Origin: a virus
IMG/VR virus record: IMGVR_UViG_3300031673_000597
Location: 1-20,559 of that record
Direction: 5' to 3' (one strand)
DNA length: 20,559 nt
The translations under genes and the position numbers were made by a program. The notes under the pieces were generated by a model, which ran no database searches, was not told the origin of the DNA, and worked only from the letters and a program-made list of their open reading frames with translations. Shown here one piece after another: positions 754 to 20,414 of the stretch; the stretch's first letter is position 1; the number at the start of each line of letters is the position of its first letter.

Positions 754-1242
754 ATGAAAAAAGACAGTAAAACAAGATTATTCGAAGTCATGGGAAGACT
801 CGATAAGACATTCAAACCCCGATTAAATGAAGGCTTTGAAGAAATTGAACCAAGTGCTGAAGTAGAAGTACCTGCTGAAATGGGTGCTGAAGTATCTACT
901 GAAGAACCTATTGAAGAACCTGCTGAAGCAAAATCTCCAGAAGAAAAAATTGCAGAATTAACCGCAAAGGTTGATGAACTTTATGCATTACTTCATGGTG
1001 ACGAAGAAGCTGGCGAAGAAGCTGCTGAAGTTGACATGGAAAATCTTCAAGAATGGAATTTCGACAAGAAAAAAGGCGAAAAGGAAGACGAAAAAGACGA
1101 AGAAGGCAAAGAGCATGAAAAGAAAGAAAGTCCTGAATTCGAAAAAGGTGAAGAAGAGGGTGAAGAAGAAGGTAAAAAGGAATTAGACGAAGCAAAACCA
1201 AAAAAAGTTCCTGTTGTTGCAATTGCAAAAGTCGGTAAATAA
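754..1242 (+). CDS. Highly acidic protein with putative capsid-targeting N-terminus
   Basis: 162 residues, dominated by Glu, Lys and Ala. Residues 1-26 form a basic, amphipathic segment (SKTRLFEVMGRLDKTFKPRLNE) that resembles the start of the next gene product and ends in Leu-Asn-Glu, a fit to the (L/I)-x-E sites cut by T4-type prohead protease gp21. After it comes an acidic Pro/Ala/Glu linker, a probable short coiled coil (EEKIAELTAKVDELYALL, about residues 64-81) and a Glu/Lys-rich low-complexity tail. The layout resembles T4 prohead core or internal head proteins in being small, very charged and led by a cleavable N-terminal segment, but I see no sequence match to a named one. It lies just downstream of a TATTTATA motif. 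The role in the head core is an inference; the gene itself is secure. Confidence 0.7.
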   Translation: MKKDSKTRLFEVMGRLDKTFKPRLNEGFEEIEPSAEVEVPAEMGAEVSTEEPIEEPAEAKSPEEKIAELTAKVDELYALLHGDEEAGEEAAEVDMENLQEWNFDKKKGEKEDEKDEEGKEHEKKESPEFEKGEEEGEEEGKKELDEAKPKKVPVVAIAKVGK

Positions 1243-1271
1243 TTTTATATTATATATTGTATGATATGGAA

Positions 1272-1862
1272 ATGAAATATAAATCATCAAAAAGCAAGCT
1301 TTTTGAAATGATGGAGAAAATCAATCACGTAAAACCTGTTTTGAACGAAGAATTCAAAATCATGGGTTCTTATGAGGGTATGCCTGCACGTCTCGTGGAA
1401 ACCGCCCAAGACGCACGACAAGCACATATCTTAAAAACTGAAGCACAACAGGCTTTTGGTGAAGGTTTTGATGTCTGGATAGAGCAAGGTAGTGGAGTAA
1501 TCAATGAAAATGACGACAAATGGATTCAGCAAGCAGTTGACCCAGAACATAAAGGATTCTGTACACCCATGACTAAAGATACTTGCACACCCGCACGTAA
1601 GGCATTAGCCAAGAGATTCAAAAGGGGTCTTGAAGAAGAAATGGGTGAAAAATATCGTGCAGAAGTAACTGGTACAAGAGAAAATCGTTGGTCTGGTAAT
1701 GCAATGGAATATGATACTGAGCAAGAAGCTAAAGATTGGCTGGATGGTTTAAGAGGTCGTTGGTTTGGTTATGATATGGGTCGTGTTGTACCTGTTTCTA
1801 CACCAACAGGACAACCAGTAGATATGGAAAATGATGATATTTATCAGAATTTTAGAGGATAA
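1272..1862 (+). CDS. Phage protein with LNE-type N-terminal segment and two small conserved domains
   Basis: The open frame begins with TTG at 1257 and has ATG at 1266 and 1272. I chose 1272 because it places LNE at residues 24-26, as in the upstream gene product, and gives a matching start (K-S-K-LFEMM-x-K-I...KPVLNE). The rest has no membrane helix. Two recognisable stretches follow. One is DPEHKGFCTP-MTKDTCTPARKALAKRFK, containing two Cys-Thr-Pro motifs. The other is a compact block, RWSGNAMEYDTEQEAKDWLDGL-RGRWFG-(8)-RVV, of a type I recall as a free-standing small domain in many phage proteins. Neither has a known function. If the LNE site is cut by the prohead protease at 18001, the product would be a head-packaged protein that loses about 26 residues. 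Function unknown. Confidence 0.7.
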   Translation: MKYKSSKSKLFEMMEKINHVKPVLNEEFKIMGSYEGMPARLVETAQDARQAHILKTEAQQAFGEGFDVWIEQGSGVINENDDKWIQQAVDPEHKGFCTPMTKDTCTPARKALAKRFKRGLEEEMGEKYRAEVTGTRENRWSGNAMEYDTEQEAKDWLDGLRGRWFGYDMGRVVPVSTPTGQPVDMENDDIYQNFRG

Positions 1863-3009: not shown

Positions 3010-5496
3010 ATGAAGAAACATACATCAGAAGAAGCATATTACGATAGAATCAAAACTTTAGCTAACGTAAATAAGACTTCGATAAAAGAGTCTCAAAACC
3101 GTGGTTTAGGTACTTTGATTGATTACAAAAGAGCAGCCGATGGTGTTGCATATGGTATCGTTAAAGAACAACATCAATACTACATCAAAAAAGGTGGATT
3201 GAGTGAGAACCAAACAGTTGCAGATTTTGCATACATTGGTGGCTTGGCTAATATCACAGAATTCCAATACGGAAAACTCGCAGAAGCTGAAAAACAAAGA
3301 AATATGTTGTTCAGAACTATCAATGAAAGTATTTCAACTAAAGTAAGTAAAACTGGTAGTAGGAAAAAAGTGAATCTGAATGAAGATAAAACAGCACAAG
3401 AAATTGGTGATGCTGAAGGTATGTTAGGTGATTTGGATGCAGCGACTGCTGCTAAAGAAATTCCAGTAGCAGAACCAGCAGGTGATGAAATGGCTGCAGG
3501 TCTTGATGCTGAACCAGTAGGTGGTGCTGAAGAAGTTGATGCTGAAGTTAGTGCTGAAGAACCAGCACCAGAAGGTGATGCAGGTGCTGATTTAGAGGCA
3601 TCTTTAGGTGGCGAAGAAGGTGATGCAGGTGCTGATTTAGAAGCATCTTTAGGTGGCGAAGGTGGCGAAGAAGTTGATGCTGAAGTTGGTGCTGAAGAAC
3701 CAGCACCAGAAGGTGGTGAAGAAGAGGTTGCGGTTGATGCAGAGGTTACTGATGATGAAGAATATGCTACAGAAGACCCACAAAGTGAAACAACAAGAGA
3801 ACTTGAAAAACAACTTGGTAAGATAACCAATACAATTAGAAAAACGGAATTAGAACCGTCACAAACCGAATCGTATCTTAAATCGTTCATACAGGCGTTT
3901 AAAGATAAACTTCCTAAACTCGAAATCGAAGACAGGAAAGAAATAGCAGAAAAAATTACAAAAATTATTCCACCAGAAGACATGGAAGATTTAGGACAAA
4001 GTGTTGAAGACAGCGAAGCTGCTGCAGGCATTGAACCTAAAGAAATTAAGATGGATACCAGTGAACCAGATTTAAAGATGGCTGCTGAAGGTGTTGAAGG
4101 TGAAGAAGGTGGTCAGAAAACATTATTCAAACAATGGTTTGACGGTGAACGTAGTAATGAGGGTTCGTTTATGACTGGATTATTAGAGTTATTCTTAAAA
4201 GCAGATGCATCTAATAAACAAAAACTTGCACAAGGATTCCCTAACGTATTTTCTATGGATGATGTGTATTATTTCACTGGTAAGCCAACTGCAAGTAATG
4301 ATGTAGCTGAAGGTCAGTGTGCTGAATGTGGTAGCTTTGCACAATATGCAGAATCACGTGGTTATGGTAGTGCAGAAGCTCTCATGGAATGTGGTGAAGA
4401 AGAATTAGGAAATGTTGTAAGTGGTTATGCAAATGCACATGGTGAAGGTATGAATGACGGTGACATGGAAAATGTTGCTTTAGTACTTAAACTTATCAAC
4501 CCTGAAATCCTAAATCAATTAAAAGGTGATTACGGTCACGAAGAATACGCAAATCAGCTTGAACCAATAGTTACAGGTATGAATGAATGTAGTCAAGAAG
4601 AAGGTGTTGTAAAACTTAATGAGCTTTTTGGTGGCGTAAATGCAACTAATGCTCCGATTGACCCTGCAAGTATTGAAACACAACCCCCATTAACTGAAGA
4701 CGAAGAAGCAGAAGAAGAAATAGAAGTTGATGCTCCAACAGTAAAAGTTGCTGATGATGACGATGATATGGGTGGTGAACCTGAAGGCAATTTCTTTGCA
4801 AATGATAGTCAATCATTAGGTGGTGGTGTAGTTAAACCAGATGGTGCTGGAACAACAAGTGTTGAGGTTACCAAGGGTAGTGTAAATGTTACAATGAACG
4901 AAGCTAAAGCTAAATTGATTAGGCAAATCGCAACAGGTGTTAATGAATACCTCAAAGAAACCACTACTAAGGAAATCAAAGAACCTAAAAAAGAAGTGGT
5001 ATCTGAAAGCGAAATGAAATTAAGAAAATATATTCGTGCTCGTCTTGAAGAAAAGGCTGGTTTAAGAAAACCAATTTTATCTGAAAGTAAAAAATCAGAC
5101 ACACTTAAAAAACTTGATGCTACTATTGACAAACAATTTAAATTGTATGAAGCAGTTGCACTAAAAAAAAAAGATAGTGTTGTCGAAGGTTGGTTAGGTG
5201 ATAAAGTTGGTGGAATGGCGAATAAGTTCAACCAAGCTGTTGAAGGTAAATTCAAAAAGCAAAGAGAACTTAAACAGGCAATTGAAGCTGACCCAGCAGG
5301 TGCAAAATCTGCATTATTGAAAGCATTCTCTACTGAGTTAATGTACAATACTGGTGCATCGAGTTTTGTTAAAGGCGTAAGTCCTGAGAACGCACTTGAA
5401 GTTGCGCAACAGGTAGTAAGTGACCCAGACGGTTTAGGTAAACTAAGTCAAAGAAGTGGTTTGTTAGTTTATATACCTGCGAAAGACGTAAAATAA
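3010..5496 (+). CDS. Large acidic, repeat-containing phage protein (828 aa), probably structural
   Basis: Residues 1-110 form an ordered-looking domain with AADGVAYGIVKEQHQYYIKKG and DFAYIGGLANITEFQYGK, a pattern I associate with uncharacterised proteins of T4-like phages. Residues 140-255 are a low-complexity Gly/Ala/Glu/Asp region with in-frame tandem repeats. The middle contains a C437-AE-C440 pair and further cysteines at C461 and in NECSQ; whether these bind metal is uncertain. A second acidic linker lies around 560-585 and a Lys-rich helical C-terminus follows. Several LNE, INE and LSE tripeptides could be prohead-protease sites (RTINES, VNLNEDK, PILSES). It has its own promoter-like motif and a strong terminator, so it forms a single-gene unit. 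High-level late expression and a virion or head-core role are inferences; no domain of known function is visible. Confidence 0.65.
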   Translation: MKKHTSEEAYYDRIKTLANVNKTSIKESQNRGLGTLIDYKRAADGVAYGIVKEQHQYYIKKGGLSENQTVADFAYIGGLANITEFQYGKLAEAEKQRNMLFRTINESISTKVSKTGSRKKVNLNEDKTAQEIGDAEGMLGDLDAATAAKEIPVAEPAGDEMAAGLDAEPVGGAEEVDAEVSAEEPAPEGDAGADLEASLGGEEGDAGADLEASLGGEGGEEVDAEVGAEEPAPEGGEEEVAVDAEVTDDEEYATEDPQSETTRELEKQLGKITNTIRKTELEPSQTESYLKSFIQAFKDKLPKLEIEDRKEIAEKITKIIPPEDMEDLGQSVEDSEAAAGIEPKEIKMDTSEPDLKMAAEGVEGEEGGQKTLFKQWFDGERSNEGSFMTGLLELFLKADASNKQKLAQGFPNVFSMDDVYYFTGKPTASNDVAEGQCAECGSFAQYAESRGYGSAEALMECGEEELGNVVSGYANAHGEGMNDGDMENVALVLKLINPEILNQLKGDYGHEEYANQLEPIVTGMNECSQEEGVVKLNELFGGVNATNAPIDPASIETQPPLTEDEEAEEEIEVDAPTVKVADDDDDMGGEPEGNFFANDSQSLGGGVVKPDGAGTTSVEVTKGSVNVTMNEAKAKLIRQIATGVNEYLKETTTKEIKEPKKEVVSESEMKLRKYIRARLEEKAGLRKPILSESKKSDTLKKLDATIDKQFKLYEAVALKKKDSVVEGWLGDKVGGMANKFNQAVEGKFKKQRELKQAIEADPAGAKSALLKAFSTELMYNTGASSFVKGVSPENALEVAQQVVSDPDGLGKLSQRSGLLVYIPAKDVK
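3529..3715 (+). repeat. In-frame coding repeats in the acidic region
   Basis: Two adjacent 45-bp copies (3571-3615, 3616-3660; one mismatch seen) each encode EGDAGADLEASLGGE. They are flanked by a 49-bp direct repeat (3529-3577 and 3667-3715, with few mismatches) that encodes EEVDAEV-(S/G)-AEEPAPEG. The nested arrangement suggests repeated slippage or unequal recombination that kept the reading frame. Confidence 0.9.
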
Positions 5497-7026: not shown

Positions 7027-9081
7027 ATGGCTACGAAAAAAAATCCAGATATAATTCCCGATGACGATTCCCTATTTCCTGAACACATACCTGTTCTTCC
7101 ATATGATATTCAAAGGGAGAAAGAAAAGGAAGCCGTTAGAAAATTAGCTGCTGAACTTCGTAAGAAATCAGGGAAAATTGAACCAGTTATTGTTAACAGA
7201 GATGGTATAGCTAAAAAAGCCAGCGAATTAACCATTTCCGAACAAGAATATGAATTTGTGCGTTGCGCTACAAATCCAATATATTTTATCGAAACCTATT
7301 TAACAATCTTTGACCAGACTCAAGGTGCTGCTGGTTTGATTGTACAATTTAAACTTTTTGATTTTCAAGTAGATTTGGTTAATACATATCTCAATAATAG
7401 ATTTGTTGTAGCCAATAAATATCGTCAGGCTGGTGTTAGTACAACAACCTGTGCATATATTGCGTGGTATGTAATGTTTAATCAAAACCGTAGTGTCGCT
7501 ATCGTGGCTGATAAACTTGAAACTGCTCGTGATGAATTAATGAATGATGTCGTAATGTTTATCGATAGCTGTCCAGAATGGCTTAGACCTAAAACTGGTA
7601 AAGAATCTAACGATAAATTCAAAGATACTCAGAAATTAAAGCGATATGATAACGGTTCATCTCTGGGAGCATTCTCATCAAGAGGTCTTCGTGGTTATAC
7701 GCCTACTTTGTTATTCTGGGATGAAACTGCTTGGACGGAGAAAGCAGATAAGTTTTGGACATCAGCAAAACCAACACTACAAACTGGTGGTGCTGCAATC
7801 ATGGTAAGTACTCCTTCTGGTCTTGATGCGGTGTTCTATAAGACGTTTGATGGTGCACGTAGAAAAGAAAATAACTTTAAAGCCGTTGAACTCTGGTGGT
7901 ATAATGACCCAAGATACAATAAAGGATTGGTTTGGTTAAAAAATAAGGGAAAGGAAAATCAAATTACTCGTGTTGATGATGGTTGGAGTAATGAAGATAG
8001 AATTCAGATGGCTGGAGACCTTTGGGAAGCCAGTTCTCCGTGGTTTGAGGAACAAGTGAGGGATGCTAATGGTGACATGCGTAAAATCGCACAGGAACTC
8101 CTGTGTTCATTCTTGGGTTCTGGCGATAACTTCATTGCAGAAGAATATCTCTTACGTATACAAGAACATGAAGTAATTGTTCCTATCCGTCAGGAATACA
8201 TGGACTTAAACATGTGGATTTGGGAAGACCCTATTGTTGGTGAAGATTATATTATGACAATAGATGCGTCAGCAGGTCACGGAGAAGACAACTCAACAAT
8301 TAATATATTAAAAAAGAGTGAGATTGTCGAGGAAAAAATTATAACAAGGGGTGAGAAAGTAAAAAAGGTTAAGATAAAGAAACATAAATTACTTCAAGTA
8401 GCTGAATATTATGGAAAGGTTGTTCCACAGGTACTTGCAGAAATTGCATATCAATATGGGAGAAGATATAATAATGCCTATACTGTTGTTGACGTTACTG
8501 GTGGATATGGGGTGCAAACAGTTGAAAAATTACTTGAATTTGGATATGAAGATGTTCATTATGCCGAAGTAACACATAAACCAACAAGAGATAGATTACA
8601 GGGTTATATTAAAAAGGGACAGAAAGTAATGCCTGATGGTAATGTGATAAACGTGGATTTAATCCCCGGTTTCTTCATCGGAAACAACCGTGCATCAGTT
8701 GTACTTGAAATGCAGAGAGCTATCCATATGGAAGACGTGATAATCAGGTCAGTAAGATTACTAAACGAATTAAAAACATTCGTTACTGTTGCTGGAAACC
8801 GTGTTGCTGACCATAAACGTAGCTTCCATGATGACAGTATTATGGGACTATCCATTGGTTTATATGTGGTGAATTTTGACATGGCTCGATACAAACAAAG
8901 TAAAGGTATTACTGAAAAATTACTCAACTCAATACTTACGTTGAACGATATTAGTGAGATTGAAAGAATTAAGGGTGTTAAAAATAAACCAATGATTTCA
9001 CCTAACAGCACATCTATACATAATCCTTATGCTGCAAATGCTTGGTTATTTAAAGGTATTAAGGATAAAAACAAAACATAG
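7027..9081 (+). CDS. terL: Large terminase subunit (T4 gp17-like)
   Basis: 684 residues. This is the packaging motor ATPase and headful nuclease, acting with the portal to pump DNA into proheads. The ATPase half has a Walker A-like RQAGVSTT (133-140), Walker B LLFWDE with D232 and E233, and coupling motif MVSTPSG (259-265). The nuclease half has the RNase H-like acidic residues D413 in TIDASAGHGED, D489 in VVDVTGGYG, and HDD at 601-603 near FHDDSIMGLSIG. Length is close to the 610 residues of T4 gp17 plus an N-terminal extension of about 70 charged residues. Walker A departs from the classic GKT/S by having GVST, a substitution I consider common in such terminases. No small terminase is visible in the window. 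The next gene is the portal, although T4 has tail genes 18 and 19 between them. Confidence 0.95.
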   Translation: MATKKNPDIIPDDDSLFPEHIPVLPYDIQREKEKEAVRKLAAELRKKSGKIEPVIVNRDGIAKKASELTISEQEYEFVRCATNPIYFIETYLTIFDQTQGAAGLIVQFKLFDFQVDLVNTYLNNRFVVANKYRQAGVSTTTCAYIAWYVMFNQNRSVAIVADKLETARDELMNDVVMFIDSCPEWLRPKTGKESNDKFKDTQKLKRYDNGSSLGAFSSRGLRGYTPTLLFWDETAWTEKADKFWTSAKPTLQTGGAAIMVSTPSGLDAVFYKTFDGARRKENNFKAVELWWYNDPRYNKGLVWLKNKGKENQITRVDDGWSNEDRIQMAGDLWEASSPWFEEQVRDANGDMRKIAQELLCSFLGSGDNFIAEEYLLRIQEHEVIVPIRQEYMDLNMWIWEDPIVGEDYIMTIDASAGHGEDNSTINILKKSEIVEEKIITRGEKVKKVKIKKHKLLQVAEYYGKVVPQVLAEIAYQYGRRYNNAYTVVDVTGGYGVQTVEKLLEFGYEDVHYAEVTHKPTRDRLQGYIKKGQKVMPDGNVINVDLIPGFFIGNNRASVVLEMQRAIHMEDVIIRSVRLLNELKTFVTVAGNRVADHKRSFHDDSIMGLSIGLYVVNFDMARYKQSKGITEKLLNSILTLNDISEIERIKGVKNKPMISPNSTSIHNPYAANAWLFKGIKDKNKT

Positions 9082-9153: not shown

Positions 9154-11166
9154 ATGGCTGAACAAGAAAAAAGAGGTACTATATATCAACAGCTTAATAA
9201 ACTTTTGAATCTCGATGGTATGGGATTTCAAGATGCACAACCATCAATCTCACAAAGCACACCATCTAAAGACGCTAAAATTGTTATTAAGGGTAATACC
9301 CCAGAAGAAATCCACAGAAAAGGTCTGGAGATAGAACAGAAAAAAGAACTCCAAAATAAGTTCTTTAGGACAACCGACAGAGGTTTTCAGAAAGCACTTC
9401 AATACGAAGCAGCCAGACTTCCTGCATATATTGACTACGAAGGTATGGAATACTATCCAATTATCAGTAGTGCATTGGATTTATTCATGGAAGAAGCAAC
9501 TACAATTGGTATTGATGGTAAGATGTTAAACATCTATTCCAATAAAGACAGAATCAAGACCCTATTAGATGAATTTTTCTACGATATTGTAAATGTGAAT
9601 GTTAACTTACCGTTTTGGGTAAGAAACTTAGTGAAGTACGGTGATAATTTCGTATTACTTTACGGTGAACGTAAAAAAGGCATTACTCACGTAAAACAAC
9701 TCGTTAATTACGAAATTGAGAGATTTGAGAGAATACAAAACGGTAAGCCACTGGTGAAATTCAAAGAAAGAATGACTGGTGACGAATTCAACGTATTTGA
9801 AATCGCACACTTTAGGTTACTCGGTGATGACAAGTATCTACCTTATGGTTCTTCAGTTCTTAATAAGGTCAGAAGGGTGTTCCGTCAGCTTGTAATGGCT
9901 GAAGATGCAATGCTTACCTATCGTATTATTCGTGCTGGCGAGAAAAAAGTATTTAAAATCGATGTTGGAAACATAGATGAAGAAGATATTGAGGAATACA
10001 TCTACAAAGTAGCAACCAAGTTCAAAAAAACAGCACAAGTACAAGCAAATGATGGTCAAATCGACTATAGATTCAATATTCTGGGAAATGATGAAGATTA
10101 TTTTCTACCAATGCGTAATTCAAATTCGCAGACTGGTGTTGAGACGCTCCCGGGCGCAACGAATCTCGATGCAATTCAGGATATTGAATACCTTCGTGAT
10201 AACCTGTTTATCGGATTAGGTATTCCGAAGCCATTCCTGAGTTTCCAAGATGCTGCTGGTGCTGGTAAAAACATGGCACAATATGATATTAGATTTTCAA
10301 AGAAAATCAATCGTATTCAACAGGCTGTAATTCAAGAACTCAATAAAATGGCAATGATTCATTTGTATTTATTGGGTTATAGTGGGGAAGACCTTAGTGG
10401 ATTTCAATTAACGCTTACTAATCCTTCAACACAACAGGAACAATTGAAAGCTGAACTGCTGAGAGAAAAAGCACAAACCTATGCCGAATTAACACGTGGT
10501 GAAGGTGGTATCGCAGCAATGTCACACACAAGAGCAAAACGTATGTTATTCAATTGGAGTGATAGAGAAATTGTTGAAGACCTTAAACAACAGAAAATGG
10601 AGAAGGTTGTTATGCAAGAACTTGCAGATGCTCCTGTTAGTATTAAGAAAACTGGTTTATTTGCTGATATCGATAAGCGATTTGGAGCACCAGAAGAACT
10701 TGCACCAAGCGGTGGAACTGAAGGTGGAATGCCACCAGAAGGCGGTGAGATGGGTGGAATGCCACCATTAGGTGGTGAGATAGGTGGAGCACCACCAGCA
10801 GGCGGTGAGATGGGTGGAGCACCATTAGGTGGTGGAGCACCAGCAGGTGGAGATATGGGTGGCGGTGGAATGCCACCATTGGCTGAACGACATTCAAAAC
10901 TAAGTGAAGAGGAATTTAGTCAACATGTTGAAAGAATGGTTTTTGGTAATAGTGTTGAGCCAGAACATAAAAAAGAGAAGAAGAATAAGAAGGTTATCAA
11001 TGAGAATAACGAAGCTAACGACAAATTAAATAAGAATGCTCAAGATATGATTATCGAAATTGACGCATTGCTTGATACTACCGAAAGCTTCAATACTCAG
11101 ACAAAAATAACTGAAGCTGAAGATATTAATCTTGATGATATTGAGGGAATCGAAATTACTGAATAA
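9154..11166 (+). CDS. Portal vertex protein (T4 gp20-like) with repeat-rich C-terminal extension
   Basis: 670 residues. The portal dodecamer nucleates prohead assembly and is the channel for DNA entry and exit. Diagnostic stretches of the gp20 family are YGDNFVLLYGE (about 161-171), MLTYRIIRAGEKKVFKIDVGN, and the later FLPMRNSN-(6)-TLPGATNLD-(6)-EYLRDNLFIGLGIPKPFL, which corresponds to the LPGG-NL-DIEDVEYFRDKL region of T4. The body ends around residue 515. Beyond it is a Gly/Pro/Met-rich repeat region (about 520-576), then a highly charged Lys- and Glu-rich tail ending in IEGIEITE. That extension accounts for most of the length beyond T4 gp20 (about 524 residues). It has two promoter-like motifs upstream and lies directly after the terminase gene. 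Confidence 0.93.
   Translation: MAEQEKRGTIYQQLNKLLNLDGMGFQDAQPSISQSTPSKDAKIVIKGNTPEEIHRKGLEIEQKKELQNKFFRTTDRGFQKALQYEAARLPAYIDYEGMEYYPIISSALDLFMEEATTIGIDGKMLNIYSNKDRIKTLLDEFFYDIVNVNVNLPFWVRNLVKYGDNFVLLYGERKKGITHVKQLVNYEIERFERIQNGKPLVKFKERMTGDEFNVFEIAHFRLLGDDKYLPYGSSVLNKVRRVFRQLVMAEDAMLTYRIIRAGEKKVFKIDVGNIDEEDIEEYIYKVATKFKKTAQVQANDGQIDYRFNILGNDEDYFLPMRNSNSQTGVETLPGATNLDAIQDIEYLRDNLFIGLGIPKPFLSFQDAAGAGKNMAQYDIRFSKKINRIQQAVIQELNKMAMIHLYLLGYSGEDLSGFQLTLTNPSTQQEQLKAELLREKAQTYAELTRGEGGIAAMSHTRAKRMLFNWSDREIVEDLKQQKMEKVVMQELADAPVSIKKTGLFADIDKRFGAPEELAPSGGTEGGMPPEGGEMGGMPPLGGEIGGAPPAGGEMGGAPLGGGAPAGGDMGGGGMPPLAERHSKLSEEEFSQHVERMVFGNSVEPEHKKEKKNKKVINENNEANDKLNKNAQDMIIEIDALLDTTESFNTQTKITEAEDINLDDIEGIEITE
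10711..10881 (+). repeat. Degenerate 30-bp tandem repeat in portal C-terminus
   Basis: Units of 30 bp begin at 10711, 10741 and 10771, followed by shortened or altered units from 10801, 10828 and 10846. The consensus is GG(T/C)GGTGAGATGGGTGGA followed by (A/G)(T/C)(G/A)CCACCA(T/G)(T/C)A, encoding GGEMGG-(M/A)-PP-(L/A). The protein segment is flexible and rich in Gly, Pro and Met. It stays in frame throughout. Confidence 0.9.
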
Positions 11167-11246: not shown

Positions 11247-12044
11247 ATGAAAAACACTAATATTGGAATAGCTAATTTAGTAGTTTCAAACAAATTGAAA
11301 GAGTCATACTTCCAAGGCACTCTACTTGAAGAGTCAAGGAAGATAACATCTGACTTTCTCAATGTTGTAAAGAACTCACCAATATTGCAATTGGAATTCA
11401 AGGTGTTCAATAATATTGAAAATAAACACATTGTGAATGAGTTACTTGCAAAGGATTATATCGACAATCACATTAAGCTATTTGAAGTATATACGATAGA
11501 GGAAATCGATGCTGAACGTGAAAAACTAAATGGTTTTCTTATTGAAAATGTCGTTGAAACTATAACTGAAGCTGATTATAATCTTGAGAAGATTGATTTA
11601 TATAATGCTATTGATGCGCTTATAACTGAGTCGCTTAATGATTATGATAAAGTTGATGTTGATAATATCTACGAATCATTTACTGTTGTTTTAAATCATG
11701 TGAAAGAACCTAAGAAAATATTGGTTGAAAATGTTATGACTGAAGAGATTGGTGAAGAGATTATTGAAATAGCAGTTGATAAGTTCAATCAGAAATATGC
11801 GGAACTCAATGAAGATGATAAAAATTTACTTCAATTACTTATAAAATCTAATGATAAAGAGAAAAAAGAACTCCTTGAAACATATAAAACTGAAAGTCTT
11901 GTAGTCTTAGAAGGAATTAATAAAGACACTGTTAAAGAAAATATTCTAAAAGCGATTCAAAAAATAAAAGAAATGAAGTATAATAAAACAAATGTTGTTG
12001 ACGACATTATTAGTCTCCACGAACTGAAAAGAGATTTATTATAA
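11247..12044 (+). CDS. Helical, acidic phage protein of unknown function (265 aa)
   Basis: Rich in Glu, Lys, Ile and Asn, apparently all-helical, without membrane segments. It lies directly after the portal, where T4 carries the small prohead core genes 67 and 68, but it is larger and I see no clear sequence similarity. Motifs such as SYFQGTLLEES, FLIENVVETITEADYNLE and YAELNEDDKNLLQLLI suggest heptad-like helices. ELNE and ITE tripeptides could be prohead-protease sites. It has its own promoter-like motif and ends in the bidirectional terminator it shares with the minus-strand gene. A head-core or tail-assembly role is an inference from position alone. Confidence 0.6.
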   Translation: MKNTNIGIANLVVSNKLKESYFQGTLLEESRKITSDFLNVVKNSPILQLEFKVFNNIENKHIVNELLAKDYIDNHIKLFEVYTIEEIDAEREKLNGFLIENVVETITEADYNLEKIDLYNAIDALITESLNDYDKVDVDNIYESFTVVLNHVKEPKKILVENVMTEEIGEEIIEIAVDKFNQKYAELNEDDKNLLQLLIKSNDKEKKELLETYKTESLVVLEGINKDTVKENILKAIQKIKEMKYNKTNVVDDIISLHELKRDLL

Positions 12045-12074: not shown

Positions 12075-15000
12075 TTACGTATATTTGTTAAAGAAATCTT
12101 TCCTCATCATATTCAAGTCAACATTCGAATTGATTCCCGTGACTTTACCCTGAGAACTAAATTGCCATGCACTCCAAGGTATGTGAGAATCTGATTTGGA
12201 CTTCCAACCCACTGGTGGTGTTGGTAAGTGTGTTTCAGGACTAATGTTCTTACGAATATTCATGTAGTTTGCTAACCATAATGGGTATTTATTGAAATTG
12301 GTAACACCGTTTGTATTTAAGAAGTTCGCATATGAATATATAATGGTTTTATATCCAGCATCTTTAAGCACATCAATAAATGTTTGTATGTATATTGGCA
12401 TGCTCGCTTTTCTATTTGTCCAAGCAACTGGCTTCATTTTAGTTGGATATGCATCATCAATAAAATTCTCAATATCCAATACAAGTGGGAAATCTGGTTT
12501 TGGTAATTCTTTCACCTTTTCCAAGAACCAATTTGCTTCTGCTGTTGCATCTGCTGCTGGGTCGGTGGAAGAACCGGGTCTTGCAAAGTGATAATAACCA
12601 ACCTTCACCTTATTATTAATAGCATTCTTAATGTTTTGCTTGAGTTCGTAGTTTGAAGAATTTTCATCGTAGAACCAAGTGCCCTCAGTAACTTTTATGA
12701 ATGCGAAATCAACACCATATTCTTTAGCTTGACTCCAATTAATATTACCTTGATAATTGGCTACGTCTACACCAAGAACACTATCTAAATCATTGAGTCT
12801 TTCATTTGTTATCATTGATGCTTCAGTTCCTTCTTCCGCAAATCCTGTCAATGCTTGAGCAACACTTGAACCCTCAAATCCCATAGAAGCTGCTGGATTA
12901 GTTACTCTTGGAACAGGATATTTTAATATTTTAGTACCTGTAAAGGATGTGGTCATTCTATTTGGTACTAAATTGTGTTCAACACTTAATATCAGGTATG
13001 CACCGTTAAAAAGCGGTACATTGTCCAATTGAAAATATTGCGTTGGTTGAATCATTGCGTTTCCTAAACCAGTAACAGTTGCGCTATATGCACGATTTTC
13101 ATACAAATTGTATAGGTTCTGTCCCTTCGGTATTGGTGCATTCTTTCCTTCATCACCAGCCAATCTCGCCAATATCTGAATACTTTCATTTGTTTCAGGA
13201 TATTCCTTACTGTCAATTTTTATATCGGTGAACATCGATTGATTCTGTTGTCCGAATAATACTCTAAATGCCCTTACTTGTCTGAATATTTTTTTTGTGA
13301 GTTCAGGATTACGTTCTTCTTGTTTATCATATTCTGGGTTTGCTGGGCAATTCGAATCAAAATCGGCTGCATCTGTTGTTGTGATATCAGTAATGCCATC
13401 ATCCTTAAAACCATTATTTAAATTATTTGGATAACTTGATGAACCACCAACATATAAACATACAAATGCCTGTCGTTGTTCAACAACATCACTTGGGTCG
13501 ATTTTAAATGTATTCTCCCAACTTTCTGGAGAATGTGAAATAAAGTTTTGAAGCGGAAAGAATAAAAAATTATTTTCTGATATTAGCTGCGAAAGTACTG
13601 TGAAAATCGAAGCATTATTATCCTCATATAAAGCCAATAATATCTCTGGATTTATACACGTATTACCAACAGGATTCATTGCCCTATCCACAAATATAAA
13701 TGAATCAATTAAATCTCTATTTGGAAGATTGAATGGGTAACCGTCAGACTCTGCTTCAGGTCCTGTCAACCATTTATCGTTGATGTTCTTGAACGAGTAG
13801 TATAATTGTGTCATAACATCATCGTCACCTTTTAGTCTTTTATTTTCTTCCTCAATTTCTTTTTGTTTATCCTCATCGAGCGTGATTTGGTGAGCTAAAT
13901 CTTTGAAGAGTTGTCTAAAGAACCTATCATTTACAGTTTTAATATCTTTATCAAGATTGCTTGCACCATCGCTGATTGCAGCATCATTTATGTTTTTTAA
14001 ACTACGATATGTCGTAGGACTCGTATAATTAGCAAATGTATTCTGAGTGAAACTAACTATTGTTGTTTCCTCCATGAGTGGTTGTAATATACTATTAAAA
14101 AACTGACCGCTTTCTGACTTGTTTTTTGTGTTTGGATTAAGGTATGCCTCATATAGTTTCTCTCTTTTTCCACCATCGGTTACACCAGATTGGACAACTT
14201 GATAAAGTCTATTAAGACTATTCCTGATTTTTTCATATGTACCATCAAGCATAAACGTATCGAAATATATTCTGAATAATTCTTTATCGTTTTCTGACAA
14301 ATATGTGTTGATGTCGTGTATATCTGCGAAAATATAAATACCACAAACACTCATTCCTTTTCCGTTTCCAGTTAAGAAAAATTCCTCAAATTGTTCTCTC
14401 AATCCATTTGTATCTGCATCCACTAATGCACCAATATATGCTGGTAAGAATTTAGGAACATCAATAGCTGATGGAGTTCTAAAAATTGAATAATTTAAAG
14501 CATTTGGGAAGATGTTGAATGGTCCCAGCGTGTAGCCAAAATTCGATAAAAGCATTGCTGCACCAAACGTACTTCCACTTGAAATTATTTGGTCATAAAT
14601 TACGGTGTCAAATGCATCTAACACACCAACCCACGTATCTACAATGTTCTGGAAGTTTTTAAGATTGAGTGCTCGTGTTCCTACTGTGATATTGAGTTCT
14701 TGATTTCCATTATTTTTTAAGTCAACGGTTATAAAATTTTCTTTATCAGCAGTTCTGAATGGGTCACTAAATCTTGTTGGAAGGTCAACCAATGATTGCT
14801 CATAGAATAAAATTTTTCCCTTCTTTATGTCTTCACTAACTCTCTTAAATGACGATATATATCTTGTTTCAAGTGGAGTACTCTCATAACTATCTAATTT
14901 ATTCGATTTTTCTGTATTTTTTTTAACTAACGTATCTTTAATATATAATACGTTGTCATTTGTAAATAAATAAGATTCTTCTGGAAGCCTATTATCAAGC

Positions 15001-17267
15001 AGTTTTTTAAATACACCTCTTTGTACGCCTTCAGCAAATTTATCGATTGGCGACCCACCCTCTTTTTTAGGTGTTAGCACTTCAATAGTATCATAATATA
15101 TGTTTGCCCCAATATAATTAGGATTATTTTTGTCTATATATGACCTACCAATAACTTCAATAGTTCCGTCAGGAAATGCATATGTAGCTGGAATATTCTC
15201 TTCCAAATAGGTGTAGAAATCTGGAAATGTTCCTTGACTACTATATGCGTCAGCAACGGTTTTAAGATTTTGTGATATTTTCGAATTACTTAATGACATT
15301 GCCAAGTTAAGTGCCTCTGCTTTAGCGTATAAATTAACATATGCCTGTGTTGCATCCTTTGGATTGAGATAAAAATCGTTTGGAAGCGAACTTTGCGTGA
15401 GAATATAAAATCTATCCAGTAAAACACCGAATATTTCATCTAAATTTGTGAGTCCTCCATATGGTGTTGATGGGTCAGTTCCTGATAATGAAGAATCTAT
15501 TGGCGATATTGGTATCCATCTTTTCGTACCATCAGAATCTGTTTCATCCTTCATATTGTAATCCAATACAATTCTTCTTTGTTTTGTGAAGGTATCGATA
15601 AAATTTTCAATCAGTTTTGATTCTGGAAACACACTTGGTAGAAGTTGGTTGAGTTCAGCAGGTGAAGTCCTTACTTCAGTTTGTCCACAAGTTTCGTCTT
15701 CCTTTTTAATAATAAGTGGAAATTGAAATATATTTTCTTCAATATTATTTGTTCCAGAGTCTTGCATGCTTCCACCATTAGCTATGATATATTTAATATC
15801 TTCCTTATTGTGATGTTTTTGTGCTTCTTTTGATGTATCACGCAATACCTTAAAGAATTTATCAACATCATCTAAAATGATTTTGAATATGTTGTATATC
15901 GTAGGACGCATACCAAGTCTTTCCTCAATCATATTATTGATTTTCTCTGTCATGTTCTTACCCGCAGTCTCTTTGTCGGCTTCTATTTGTAGTTTAGCTT
16001 GAAATAGTTTAAAGTAGAATGCGGTTACATCCAATATATAATATGGTGTGAGTGGTGTGCTATCACTTATTTTTTGAGTTGGTAAGGAAATATTGTATGT
16101 GTTATGAATTGTATTCGGTTCTGATATATCGGTATTTAAAATTCTACCATATGTTCCCGCCTGAACTGCCGTTCCAGTTAATAGCTGAGTTCTGTATATG
16201 GTCAATCCTGAATATATTGACTCTAAATTACTTGGGTTTCCAACATATCCAATACACAATCTTACATTAATTGTAGATGGTATTGTATCTTTTCCTAATG
16301 TCTTGATGTATTCATCATAATCCCTTACATTTATTAGTTTTGTTATAACAGGTGTTTGTTTTGATGTGACATCGTTTGTGAATACTAACGACTTACCCAC
16401 TAAAGCATCCCTGAATCCAAAAAGAGCAGTCATTGTTGTTTGATTATCATTATATGCAGTTAACGCATTATCATATATCTTGCTCTCAATATCAGTCTTC
16501 AATAAGGTATTACCTGCAGAATATAAATTTTTCAGTTTTAATATTAATTCGTTTATATTTTGAGGTGGTGAGTTTTGTTTTGGAGTCATTGAAACACTAT
16601 CATCAATCAATGGGAAATTAATTGCATATTTGAATAATACGTCACTTAGTGGTGCAAATGTAACTGCTACAAACTGTGCATCAATAATAAAATTACCATT
16701 TTCTGATTTAAACTCAGTTGTATACTTAACCAAATGTAATCGATATTCTAATGTTTTACCATAATATCCCTTAATTTTTAAATTAAAAATTGGTGGCGGG
16801 AAATCAAACAACACCCTGTATGGTGAATCCTTTTGATTAAAAAATGATAATCCTCTTACGTCAATAAATTGAATGTTAACTTGAGGTATATAGGAAGAGT
16901 TAACTACTACCTTAATACTTGTGATTCCAAATGATTCGTATTGAACCTGATTATCACCAGTACTACCGTCATAATAATTTGTCGTGAATTTCAGATAATC
17001 TGGATTATTAACATCATCAGTTCCTGTGTTATTTTTATTCTGGTTATTACCCATGAAATTAACATTCAGTGTGTTTTCCAGACCAGTTTTTTGAATTCCT
17101 TCCCCGATAACAACCACACTTCTTCCCTTTCTAACAGCAGTTAATTCGGCAAATATGTGCATGTCCTGATATTGTGCAATAGAATTAGTGATATCAGGAT
17201 TGATATTGACTGCGTTAGGGTCTTCTATATAATAGATGTTCTTATGCTTTTGTGCAATGCCTGCCAT
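12075..17267 (-). CDS. Giant tail-hub-like protein with C-terminal GH25 lysozyme domain
   Basis: 1730 residues, the only minus-strand gene. Residues 1498-1730 form a GH25 muramidase: GVDVANYQG (D1501), DFAFIKVTEGT, VGYYHFARP, PLVLDIE with the catalytic-type pair D1598 and E1600, and WQFSSQGKVTGI...NVDLN at the end. This family cuts the MurNAc-GlcNAc bond of peptidoglycan. The body begins with a domain carrying FGITSIKVVVNSSYIPQVNIQFIDVRG and IFNLKIKGYYGKTLEYRLHLVKY. Just before GH25, ATVTGLGNAMIQPTQYFQLDNVPLFNGAYLILSVEHN resembles the end of phage baseplate hub proteins of the gp27/gpD type. No signal peptide or membrane helix is seen, so it is more likely a virion enzyme used during entry than a secreted endolysin. 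It is convergent with the 11247 gene and divergent from the 17365 gene. The GH25 call is very sure; the hub call is inference. Confidence 0.88.
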   Translation of the reverse strand: MAGIAQKHKNIYYIEDPNAVNINPDITNSIAQYQDMHIFAELTAVRKGRSVVVIGEGIQKTGLENTLNVNFMGNNQNKNNTGTDDVNNPDYLKFTTNYYDGSTGDNQVQYESFGITSIKVVVNSSYIPQVNIQFIDVRGLSFFNQKDSPYRVLFDFPPPIFNLKIKGYYGKTLEYRLHLVKYTTEFKSENGNFIIDAQFVAVTFAPLSDVLFKYAINFPLIDDSVSMTPKQNSPPQNINELILKLKNLYSAGNTLLKTDIESKIYDNALTAYNDNQTTMTALFGFRDALVGKSLVFTNDVTSKQTPVITKLINVRDYDEYIKTLGKDTIPSTINVRLCIGYVGNPSNLESIYSGLTIYRTQLLTGTAVQAGTYGRILNTDISEPNTIHNTYNISLPTQKISDSTPLTPYYILDVTAFYFKLFQAKLQIEADKETAGKNMTEKINNMIEERLGMRPTIYNIFKIILDDVDKFFKVLRDTSKEAQKHHNKEDIKYIIANGGSMQDSGTNNIEENIFQFPLIIKKEDETCGQTEVRTSPAELNQLLPSVFPESKLIENFIDTFTKQRRIVLDYNMKDETDSDGTKRWIPISPIDSSLSGTDPSTPYGGLTNLDEIFGVLLDRFYILTQSSLPNDFYLNPKDATQAYVNLYAKAEALNLAMSLSNSKISQNLKTVADAYSSQGTFPDFYTYLEENIPATYAFPDGTIEVIGRSYIDKNNPNYIGANIYYDTIEVLTPKKEGGSPIDKFAEGVQRGVFKKLLDNRLPEESYLFTNDNVLYIKDTLVKKNTEKSNKLDSYESTPLETRYISSFKRVSEDIKKGKILFYEQSLVDLPTRFSDPFRTADKENFITVDLKNNGNQELNITVGTRALNLKNFQNIVDTWVGVLDAFDTVIYDQIISSGSTFGAAMLLSNFGYTLGPFNIFPNALNYSIFRTPSAIDVPKFLPAYIGALVDADTNGLREQFEEFFLTGNGKGMSVCGIYIFADIHDINTYLSENDKELFRIYFDTFMLDGTYEKIRNSLNRLYQVVQSGVTDGGKREKLYEAYLNPNTKNKSESGQFFNSILQPLMEETTIVSFTQNTFANYTSPTTYRSLKNINDAAISDGASNLDKDIKTVNDRFFRQLFKDLAHQITLDEDKQKEIEEENKRLKGDDDVMTQLYYSFKNINDKWLTGPEAESDGYPFNLPNRDLIDSFIFVDRAMNPVGNTCINPEILLALYEDNNASIFTVLSQLISENNFLFFPLQNFISHSPESWENTFKIDPSDVVEQRQAFVCLYVGGSSSYPNNLNNGFKDDGITDITTTDAADFDSNCPANPEYDKQEERNPELTKKIFRQVRAFRVLFGQQNQSMFTDIKIDSKEYPETNESIQILARLAGDEGKNAPIPKGQNLYNLYENRAYSATVTGLGNAMIQPTQYFQLDNVPLFNGAYLILSVEHNLVPNRMTTSFTGTKILKYPVPRVTNPAASMGFEGSSVAQALTGFAEEGTEASMITNERLNDLDSVLGVDVANYQGNINWSQAKEYGVDFAFIKVTEGTWFYDENSSNYELKQNIKNAINNKVKVGYYHFARPGSSTDPAADATAEANWFLEKVKELPKPDFPLVLDIENFIDDAYPTKMKPVAWTNRKASMPIYIQTFIDVLKDAGYKTIIYSYANFLNTNGVTNFNKYPLWLANYMNIRKNISPETHLPTPPVGWKSKSDSHIPWSAWQFSSQGKVTGINSNVDLNMMRKDFFNKYT

Positions 17268-18000: not shown

Positions 18001-18702
18001 ATGAGCAAGATATTACAGGCGGGTGAACAAGGATTTGGCATTTTAATTGAACATGATGCTGGATATATTAATAGTGAGTTAAACCCGACCATCATTAATG
18101 AAAACTTCGAACTCAAACCTAATGAACCAGTTTTAATTAATTGCATCTTACAGAAATGGGGTGTGAAAAACAAAAACGGTAGAATCTATCCCAAAGATGT
18201 TTTAGTTCCACAAGTTGATGTATATCAACAATTAGTTGATACCAATAGTGCGGTTTCAGAAGCAGACCATCCAGAAAGTAGTATAATTTCACTACAAAAC
18301 ATTTCACACATGGTAACTAAAATGTGGTGGGGGACTGGTGAATTTGAGAACGTATTATATGGACAATTGAAGATAATTGTCAGTCCCGGATTCATCAAAA
18401 TGGGTATTGTTTCAGTTGTTGGCGATAAAGTAGTATTATATCTACAAAATAAAATCAAGCTCGGAATTTCAAGTCGTGGTGTTGGAACACTTAAAGAAGT
18501 TAATGGTGAGAATCTCGTTCAAGGAGACTTCGAATTAATTGGTTTTGACTTGGTTGCGACTCCAAGTACCCCGGGTGCTTATCTCTTTCCACTAAAAAAA
18601 GGTGAGACTGGTTTCGGAGAGACATATATTAAGAAGAATGGTATATATCTTAAAGAGGATGAGAGTAAAATTATGAAAGCCACAGATAGATTTCTATTAT
18701 AA
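18001..18702 (+). CDS. Prohead core protease (T4 gp21-like, S80 family)
   Basis: 233 residues, near the 212 of T4 gp21. The protease sits in the prohead core, activates itself, degrades the scaffold and trims head proteins after (L/I)-x-E, making room for DNA. Family landmarks are in order: KNKNGRIYPKDVL (about 56-68), EADHPESS with the probable catalytic H90, KLGISSRGVG with the probable nucleophile at S157 or S158, and DFELIGFDLVATPSTPGA (176-193). INE at 32-34 and the charged C-terminal segment beyond residue 205 are candidate self-processing regions. It is followed by the scaffold and capsid genes in the T4 order. All expected active-site elements are present. Confidence 0.93.
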   Translation: MSKILQAGEQGFGILIEHDAGYINSELNPTIINENFELKPNEPVLINCILQKWGVKNKNGRIYPKDVLVPQVDVYQQLVDTNSAVSEADHPESSIISLQNISHMVTKMWWGTGEFENVLYGQLKIIVSPGFIKMGIVSVVGDKVVLYLQNKIKLGISSRGVGTLKEVNGENLVQGDFELIGFDLVATPSTPGAYLFPLKKGETGFGETYIKKNGIYLKEDESKIMKATDRFLL

Positions 18703-18818: not shown

Positions 18819-20414
18819 ATGAAAGACGATACAAAATCATCTATAATTAAGGAAGCTTTCACAGATTATAGTACAATCATGGAAGCTGCGAATGCTAATG
18901 CTAAGAAAAGATTAGCTGAAGAGTTCCCAGAGAACTTCAACAAACTATTAAAAGAAGAAATAATTAAAAATAAATCAGCAAAAGAGTCTTACAAAAAATT
19001 AGACGAAGCAAAAGAATCTGATAAAGATAAAACTGAATCAAACAAAGAATCTGATATGAAGAATCAAAACAAAGAGACCTCTAAGGTCGTAGAAACAGTT
19101 GGAAAAGGAAAACCTTTCGATAAAGCAGCACCAAAAGTAGCTGCAGTGAAAGAAGACGTAAAAATTACCGACACAGTTGGTAAAGGTGACCCATTTGATG
19201 AAAAACCAAAGGGTGTTAAGAAAATCGATGAAGAACGTGAAAAAGACTTTATGGGTGATGTGGAGAATGATACTCCAAATCAAGGTAAAGGCGAACTTGA
19301 AAAAGGTGACGCATTCAAAGAAAAACTTAAAGGACCGTCTTCAGGAAAGCCTCTTTCAAATATTAAAGAAGAGTTTGATATATCAGAGCTTGATATGGGT
19401 AGTGTAGGTACTGCAATGGACGGTGCTGGAGAAGAAGATGAGATAATCACAATCGATGAAATCGAAGCAGAAATCTCACAAATGCAAGGATTAGGTGAGG
19501 AACTTTCAGATATGAGTGGTTTACCACGTCCTACTGAACAACCTCGTGGTACTGCTAAAGGTCAGGGTGGCGATGCATTCACACAACTTAGCAATATGAG
19601 AAATCAGATTGACGAGATGTTGAAAGGCATGGAAGGCTATCCACGTCCTAAAGTTGACCAAGTGACTGGAAAAATGACAGAAATGGAATTACAACCAGAC
19701 GAAATGAGTCCTGCAGATTTTCAAAGTTCCGCAGCAATCACCGAAGAAGAAACGATTTCCGATGAGGATATCGATGCTGTTTTAGGTGCTGCACCCGAAG
19801 AAGAAGAAGTTCAAGTTGATGAACATCACGGTGTTTCATTTTCAGCAGGAACTATCACCCCGGGTAAATTGGGTGACAACGAAGGGAGTCGTGGAAGATT
19901 CCGTAAAGGTGGCGTAGATGAATCTAAGAAAATTGGTAGTTTAATCGAAGAGAACAAGAAATTGACCAAGAAATTAAACGAGACAAAGAAATTCAAAGAA
20001 TCTGTAAGCACCTTAGTCGAGCAGTACAAAGGCGCACTCGAAAAGTATCGCAATCAATTAAAGGAAATGGCAGTTTTCAATACCAACTTAGCGCATGTAA
20101 ATAACCTATTGGTAAATGAGAGCTTGGCATTGACACAAGACGATAAAATTAAAATCATCAACGAATTCAAAAAAGTTGAAAGTATTGCTGAGTCACAGAA
20201 AAGGTACAAGTCTTTCCTAACAGAAATGAAAGAAAGCAAAAAAACCTTAACTGAAAGCATTGAAGGTAAAGTATCAGCCTCTATACAACCATCTTCAAAG
20301 CAGAAACTTGACGAAGTAGTTGAAAAAACAGCTTACGCAAACGATAAGCACATCCAAAAGATGAGAAACTTAATCGAATACGTAGAGAACAGAGGCAAAA
20401 AAATAATTAAGTAA
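18819..20414 (+). CDS. Prohead scaffold / core protein (T4 gp22-like)
   Basis: 531 residues, very charged and largely helical. It lies between the protease and the capsid protein, exactly where T4 gene 22 lies. The scaffold forms the transient inner core around which the shell assembles and is then digested. The N-terminus (1-70) and C-terminus (about 375-531) are Lys/Glu-rich helices; the C-terminal block KHIQKMRNLIEYVENRGKKIIK looks conserved. Between them is a disordered-looking linker containing three GKG-x-PFD-type repeats (93-102, 119-128, 160-169). Many L-x-E and I-x-E tripeptides, such as TLTES and IINEF, suit extensive processing. It is about twice the length of T4 gp22 (269 residues), mostly because of the linker. 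The start at 18819 is preceded by an A-run with no Shine-Dalgarno. The identification rests on position, composition and end motifs. Confidence 0.82.
   Translation: MKDDTKSSIIKEAFTDYSTIMEAANANAKKRLAEEFPENFNKLLKEEIIKNKSAKESYKKLDEAKESDKDKTESNKESDMKNQNKETSKVVETVGKGKPFDKAAPKVAAVKEDVKITDTVGKGDPFDEKPKGVKKIDEEREKDFMGDVENDTPNQGKGELEKGDAFKEKLKGPSSGKPLSNIKEEFDISELDMGSVGTAMDGAGEEDEIITIDEIEAEISQMQGLGEELSDMSGLPRPTEQPRGTAKGQGGDAFTQLSNMRNQIDEMLKGMEGYPRPKVDQVTGKMTEMELQPDEMSPADFQSSAAITEEETISDEDIDAVLGAAPEEEEVQVDEHHGVSFSAGTITPGKLGDNEGSRGRFRKGGVDESKKIGSLIEENKKLTKKLNETKKFKESVSTLVEQYKGALEKYRNQLKEMAVFNTNLAHVNNLLVNESLALTQDDKIKIINEFKKVESIAESQKRYKSFLTEMKESKKTLTESIEGKVSASIQPSSKQKLDEVVEKTAYANDKHIQKMRNLIEYVENRGKKIIK

Follow-up and report, generated by a model that had tools for sequence, protein, structure and literature searches.

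Among the systems described so far, the closest to the locus considered here is the targeting sequence of the T4 internal proteins IPI, IPII and IPIII. The internal proteins of T4 carry tags of 10–19 residues that target them to the core, and gp21 cleaves after L/I-x-E, with gp22, gp23, gp24, gp67, Alt and the internal proteins as the processed proteins (PMC9026906); the passengers vary and the tag is retained (PMC9026906, PMC3012670). T4 Alt, an ADP-ribosyltransferase, is annotated as a capsid protein that enters the host. The module described below resembles the T4 sequence in being a short N-terminal segment on unrelated passengers that ends in (L/I)-x-E and is co-encoded with an S77 protease; it differs in having two L-x-E sites, many more carriers and enzyme domains among them, and it is known here from sequence alone. 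The phiKZ and SPN3US phages are likewise large, with an S77-like protease and N-terminal propeptides, some of the SPN3US head propeptides being short, 20 and 24 residues (PMC10052503). Compared by description, they differ in that cleavage follows S/A-x-E and similar motifs, and the accessible portions of these accounts describe no tag common to many variable proteins. Searches of open-access papers on capsid targeting sequences and giant-phage prohead proteases returned T4, SPN3US and P1 work, whose titles, abstracts and accessible text mention no such module.

The window, by which we mean the whole 20.6 kb virus record analysed, carries T4-type head genes. A GP88-family gene, its left end missing at the window start (1–719, + strand; Pfam GP88, 6.5e-20), is followed by the reading frames of a 162-aa product (754–1242, +) and a 196-aa product (1272–1862, +), both upstream of the head block and referred to here by their first positions. 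The block includes an 82-aa protein (2685–2933, +) and an 828-aa protein (3010–5496, +), both rich in [LI]NE and probably prohead-core proteins, judging from the [LI]NE count (of orthologs for the 82-aa protein) and the blind screen described below; the terminase large subunit (7027–9081); a T4-type portal protein (9154–11166, +; Pfam Portal_T4, 2.2e-62); and a protein with no function assigned (11247–12044, +), which by the same count and screen is [LI]NE-rich and a candidate protease substrate. Further downstream lie a gp21-type prohead protease (18001–18702, +), a member of Peptidase_S77 by a score of 66.9 bits against the curated cut-off of 27 and a match to PHROG 207 at 4.5e-37, and a probable scaffold protein, also [LI]NE-rich (18819–20414, +), recognized by its position between the protease and the capsid gene. 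The same gene order is found in a related 246 kb contig, G002, where it runs on into a T4-like major capsid protein (MCP). Some large phages with head genes of this kind have Bacteroidota as predicted hosts (PMC9723584, PMC12619734). On the opposite strand within the head block, we note a 1730-aa protein (12075–17267, −) with an endolysin-like C-terminal domain at residues 1498–1725.

An earlier note on this DNA had proposed that the 754 and 1272 products begin with a similar stretch ending in LNE and are otherwise unrelated. This proved correct: an HMM trained without the window matches both (E=4.7e-16 for the 754 product and 6.9e-8 for the 1272 product), L24-N25-E26 and F28 are present in both, and the bodies beyond the module fall into different BLAST clusters. 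The module of the 754 product, residues 1–26 (MKKDSKTRLFEVMGRLDKTFKPRLNE; 754–831, +), has candidate cut sites after E11 and E26, and that of the 1272 product, again residues 1–26 (MKYKSSKSKLFEMMEKINHVKPVLNE; 1272–1349, +) and kept in three orthologs, after E12 and E26. Because LFE occupies residues 9–11 in the former and 10–12 in the latter and LNE stays in place, there is a one-residue shift inside the module between the two products. Placing the start codon of the 1272 product at 1272, not at 1257 or 1266, agrees with the orthologs L261 and L283. AlphaFold models of both products are of low confidence (mean pLDDT 50 and 56); in these models a helix is predicted at residues 5–14 of the 754 product or 6–19 of the 1272 product, with LNE in a loop. 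Neither product has a match in Pfam or PHROGs, Rfam gave no match, and a direct search of viral contigs with the 1272 product returned no relatives; its orthologs were recovered by the module pattern instead.

For the search in related phages, IMG/VR relatives of the window's protease (80 loci) and fifteen of the larger contigs were sampled, and an iterated module HMM was run against 92 contigs or loci comprising 3.65 Mb and 21,011 stop-to-stop segments. It identified 90 carrier proteins at E<1e-3 and 93 at E<0.05, and the reversed and shuffled proteomes yielded 0 module matches at E<0.05. As a DNA pattern alone, KPxLNE gave 36 matches in 30 records versus 3 with the reversed pattern. Module patterns in viral contigs led to 72 additional loci with 104 more carriers; since these loci were chosen by the module, they show its breadth and not its frequency. 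The suggestion of the earlier note that the module could recur across the genome is borne out in related genomes, with about 190 proteins now counted. When N-terminal segments common to unrelated proteins within one genome were sought by an unbiased search, the module was the largest or joint largest cluster in G002, G003, G004, G005, G010, G011, G012, G013 and G017. Only a weak match (E=0.045) was found in G014, a clade member with the protease, and among prokaryote genomes, scanned at the DNA level, Claveliimonas bilis had the one match, possibly by chance. Carriers occur in runs, 119 of 194 having a neighboring carrier, and in L292 the GP88-, 754- and 1272-type genes stand in a row, all tagged. 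Given this row, and the module on several orthologs, the truncated GP88-family gene of the window probably carries the module too, but a GP88 homolog in G003 is apparently untagged. A single reading frame of L306 (1499–2686) contains two module copies, one at the N-terminus and one near residue 221.

The consensus of 88 carriers, MxKxxKxRLFExMxxVxxxFKxxLNE, spans about 26 residues, with no conservation beyond. Conservation is highest around LFE (L 96%, F 87%, E 98%), with K three positions before it at 93% and M two positions after its E at 84%; the hydrophobic moment is 0.41, compared with 0.30 for shuffled segments, and the net charge is about +1. The LFE near residue 10 is itself an L-x-E, hence a gp21 motif, and is better conserved than LNE. 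It is a candidate second cut site, although it might be retained for binding rather than cutting. The second triplet among 91 carriers is LNE in 43, INE in 6 and another [LIMV]xE in 24, so that 73 of the 91 have a second-site [LIMV]xE, 49 of these being [LI]NE; the 18 in which none was found include a few, at least two of them with LNE, that escaped the count because of how the core, start or offset had been set. In order to avoid circularity, the boundary was tested by searching with the first half of the module alone, up to five residues past LFE. Among the 165 matches, 61% have [LI]NE within the next 20 residues and 0% at 25–45, the background being 4.1% of all ORFs with [LI]NE at residues 15–32. 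When carriers with different bodies are aligned on [LI]NE, identity is 0.09–0.42 before it and 0.05–0.13 after it, the identity at the L-N-E columns themselves being a result of the selection and not evidence. Past the final E of LNE, unrelated carriers are no longer similar.

Were the protease of this lineage to cleave at [LI]NE, the remaining head substrates would be expected to bear this tripeptide as well. Among orthologs, the ratio of observed to shuffled [LI]NE is 9.1-fold for the 82-aa protein, 5.6-fold for the 828-aa protein, 3.6-fold for MCP, 3.2-fold for the 11247 protein, 3.0-fold for the scaffold, 2.2-fold for the portal, 2.0-fold for the protease, 1.7-fold for the terminase and 0.9-fold for a tail protein, with all other ORFs at 1.5-fold, mildly above expectation. 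A screen of 118 ortholog groups that was blind to function, with thresholds of one [LI]NE or more per protein and an enrichment above 2.2-fold, returned 14 groups, including two module groups, the 82-aa, 828-aa and 11247 proteins, MCP and the scaffold, together with several groups that have no assigned role. In the stretch from FENQ to where the shell domain begins, 39 of 41 MCP orthologs have INE, one LNE and one LKE. T4 gp23 shares FENQ and has LTE at residues 63–65, its known cut site, in the corresponding region, with the aligner placing the triplets in different columns. Most of the protease orthologs among those listed have [IL][NT]E in their N-terminal region.

How far does the parallel with T4 extend? 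As in T4, the same N-terminal segment is found on otherwise unrelated proteins, it ends in the gp21 motif (L/I)-x-E, and a gp21-type prohead protease is encoded in the same phage. In length, the 24–27 residues to LNE exceed the 10–19 of the T4 tags, and would come to 10–12 only with cutting at LFE. As for sequence homology, DKTFKPRLNE against MKTYQEFIAE scores 15, and 3.5% of background 10-mers with a terminal [LIV]xE score as high, which is not significant; the module is not demonstrably a homolog of the T4 tag. The T4-like tag read into this locus by the earlier note is supported in part, by the unrelated carriers, the co-encoded gp21-type protease and the concentration of [LI]NE in head proteins. 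That the module functions like the T4 tag is, by analogy, the best reading.

The module itself, its N-terminal position on unrelated passengers, its selection at the protein level, its boundary at LNE, the co-encoded protease and the head-protein concentration of [LI]NE are all consistent with a capsid-targeting propeptide that the prohead protease removes, a reading which we consider probable. The steps that we infer are scaffold binding, cleavage, packaging and injection. Through a basic amphipathic helix around K-x-R-L-F-E-x-M, the module would attach to the scaffold core during head assembly and so carry its passenger into the prohead. Next, L-x-E would be the cleavage signal for the co-encoded gp21-type protease, for which the 18001–18702 product is the candidate: a cut following LNE (residue 26), and perhaps one following LFE (residue 11 or 12) too, would free the passenger, which would stay with the packaged DNA and, in at least some cases, enter the host.

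The bodies of the passengers are diverse, 88 of them forming 34 BLAST groups and 191 forming 42, and Pfam recognizes a P-loop kinase (AAA_33), an ADP-ribosyltransferase (ART-PolyVal), a cupin, GP88 and DUF5661 among them, with a weak M78-peptidase match in a further passenger. Alternatively, the carriers might mainly be components of an assembly core (scaffold), like T4 gp67/gp68, that are digested and lost in maturation. Such a role would suit the body of the 754 product (832–1242, +), which is acidic and of low complexity, contains a conserved EWNFDKKKG and a conserved C-terminus in the ortholog alignment, and belongs to a group conserved beside head genes in 14 contigs; because of this acidic, conserved body adjoining head genes, the 754 product itself may be a head-core component instead of an injected effector. 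The core-like 828-aa protein also has a tentative, divergent module at its N-terminus, its G002 ortholog matching the module HMM only at E=0.2. As an account of the carriers at large, however, we regard the core role as unlikely, considering that many carriers are confined to one contig and have enzyme domains, as expected of variable cargo, and that homologous bodies exist without the tag, such as the kinases MKDSKQRLFEVMEKLNPDFKSEKPNFIIPVGISGSGKSTW (G003, tagged) and MIENFKPKFIIPIGISGSGKSRW (G001, untagged).

A few further observations concern individual passengers. The body of the 1272 product (1350–1862, +) has an internal INE at residues 77–79, directly before a small domain of unassigned function, DDKWIQ..V.PEHKGxCTPMTK.TCTPxRKALAKRFK (about 1506–1631 of the window). 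Two 1272-product orthologs lack this DDKW...CTPMTK domain, which is present on several tagged proteins (L086, L273, L286, L295) and in other phages, one of them, of 595 kb, having it untagged (LR756511.1, 502450–502575). G002 (71410–73458) and orthologs in seven genomes have a conserved tagged pair, in which a metallopeptidase-like protein of about 150 aa with a weak M78 match adjoins a protein of about 480–710 aa with no function assigned; G008 has an untagged homolog of the former, with HEMVH.

Let us suppose next that the module docks its carrier to the scaffold, capsid or portal and is retained in the virion, LNE being a structural cap and no cut site. The better conservation of LFE and its flanks than of LNE, and the 18 of 91 carriers in which a second L-x-E was not found, would fit such retention. 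On the other hand, the module ends sharply at LNE, and other head proteins are enriched in this tripeptide, which also occurs near the maturation region of MCP, so that we think a retained docking peptide quite unlikely. Still less probable, in our view, is that the module acts in the infected cell, whether by docking to a host machine or phage compartment or in control of stability; enzyme passengers would be compatible with this role as well, with nothing direct in its favor, but it leaves unexplained both the [LI]NE that is common to head proteins and the co-encoded protease.

That the similarity is a DNA-level element (translation start or recombination hot spot) or a recent duplication of gene starts, as the frequent adjacency of carriers and the GTATTTAT upstream of many of them might suggest, is hardly credible, since the choice among synonymous codons is close to random at conserved Leu, Val and Pro positions, with the protein retained, and GTATTTAT is only 2.1-fold above other genes. 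At the conserved leucines, two carriers share a codon at 0.31, versus 0.34 expected at random; such near-random codon choice implies that the protein is conserved and not the DNA, and it rules out a DNA-level element as the sole cause of the module similarity, although recombination may still have spread the module. In the 60 bases preceding the start, 38 of 91 module genes and 489 of 2449 other genes have GTATTTAT, an excess too small for a module-specific promoter, which was rejected; it is possibly a promoter element of these phages, with an instance in the window, GTATTTATA, at about 731–739, upstream of the 754 gene.

Returning to the capsid-targeting propeptide, if the module is a packaging tag, a search with 26 residues would predict head cargo directly, several genes per genome, including kinases, ADP-ribosyltransferases, metallopeptidases, cupins and many uncharacterised proteins. 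This would be relevant above all to phages seen only in metagenomes, for which it would give a testable list of proteins that may be carried into the host. Phage heads could also be loaded with chosen proteins by means of such a natural tag. It would also suggest that T4-style loading by tag plus protease is widespread, with changed tags.

A comparable arrangement is seen in Lak-B9 (MK250028.1), a 550 kb Prevotella megaphage, where segments like KALYESIMKSVSKTVKRKLNE, with the module KxLYESIMKSVSKTVKxKLNE, recur on 17 proteins at E<1e-3, for example at 99359–99808 and 532280–532657 (L339–L349), the reversed control giving no match. One copy is C-terminal and another starts well inside an open segment; the genome has an S77 protease (E=7.5e-16). 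The Lak LYESIM..KLNE N-termini, for which we know of no published name, resemble the window's module in their similar length and design, their LNE or INE end and the S77 protease, and homology between the Lak and clade modules is not established, the best E of the clade HMM being 0.02 and that of the reversed control 0.09. In relatives of the window, two more types of leader also end in [LIV]NE or similar. Tentatively, then, and with somewhat more doubt than confidence, we propose an N-terminal address code with interchangeable parts in both the large uncultivated T4-related phages and the Lak megaphages, several [LIV]NE-ended leaders (LFE..LNE; IDKVKNFKQFVNE; IINEEI..FLNE; LYESIM..KLNE) standing before many variable enzymes, which would make the packaged, probably injected proteome readable from the genome.

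Some minor observations on the leaders themselves may be added. A second Lak leader, ...ESLFDDE..., is likewise recurrent. The type 2 leader of the window's relatives, (E/D)(I/M)RxMIDxVKNFKxFVNE, is found on six proteins (G006 165–674, 61293–61685, 61926–62147 and 116808–117167; G002 191601–192146; G005 191580–192071); its end, VKNFKEFVNE, compares with T4 MKTYQEFIAE at a score that 0.14% of background 10-mers reach, which is suggestive only. The third type, IINEEI..FLNE, is found on about ten proteins with mostly related bodies, at G007 29345–30028, G001 133718–134161, G004 114907–115368 and in relatives.
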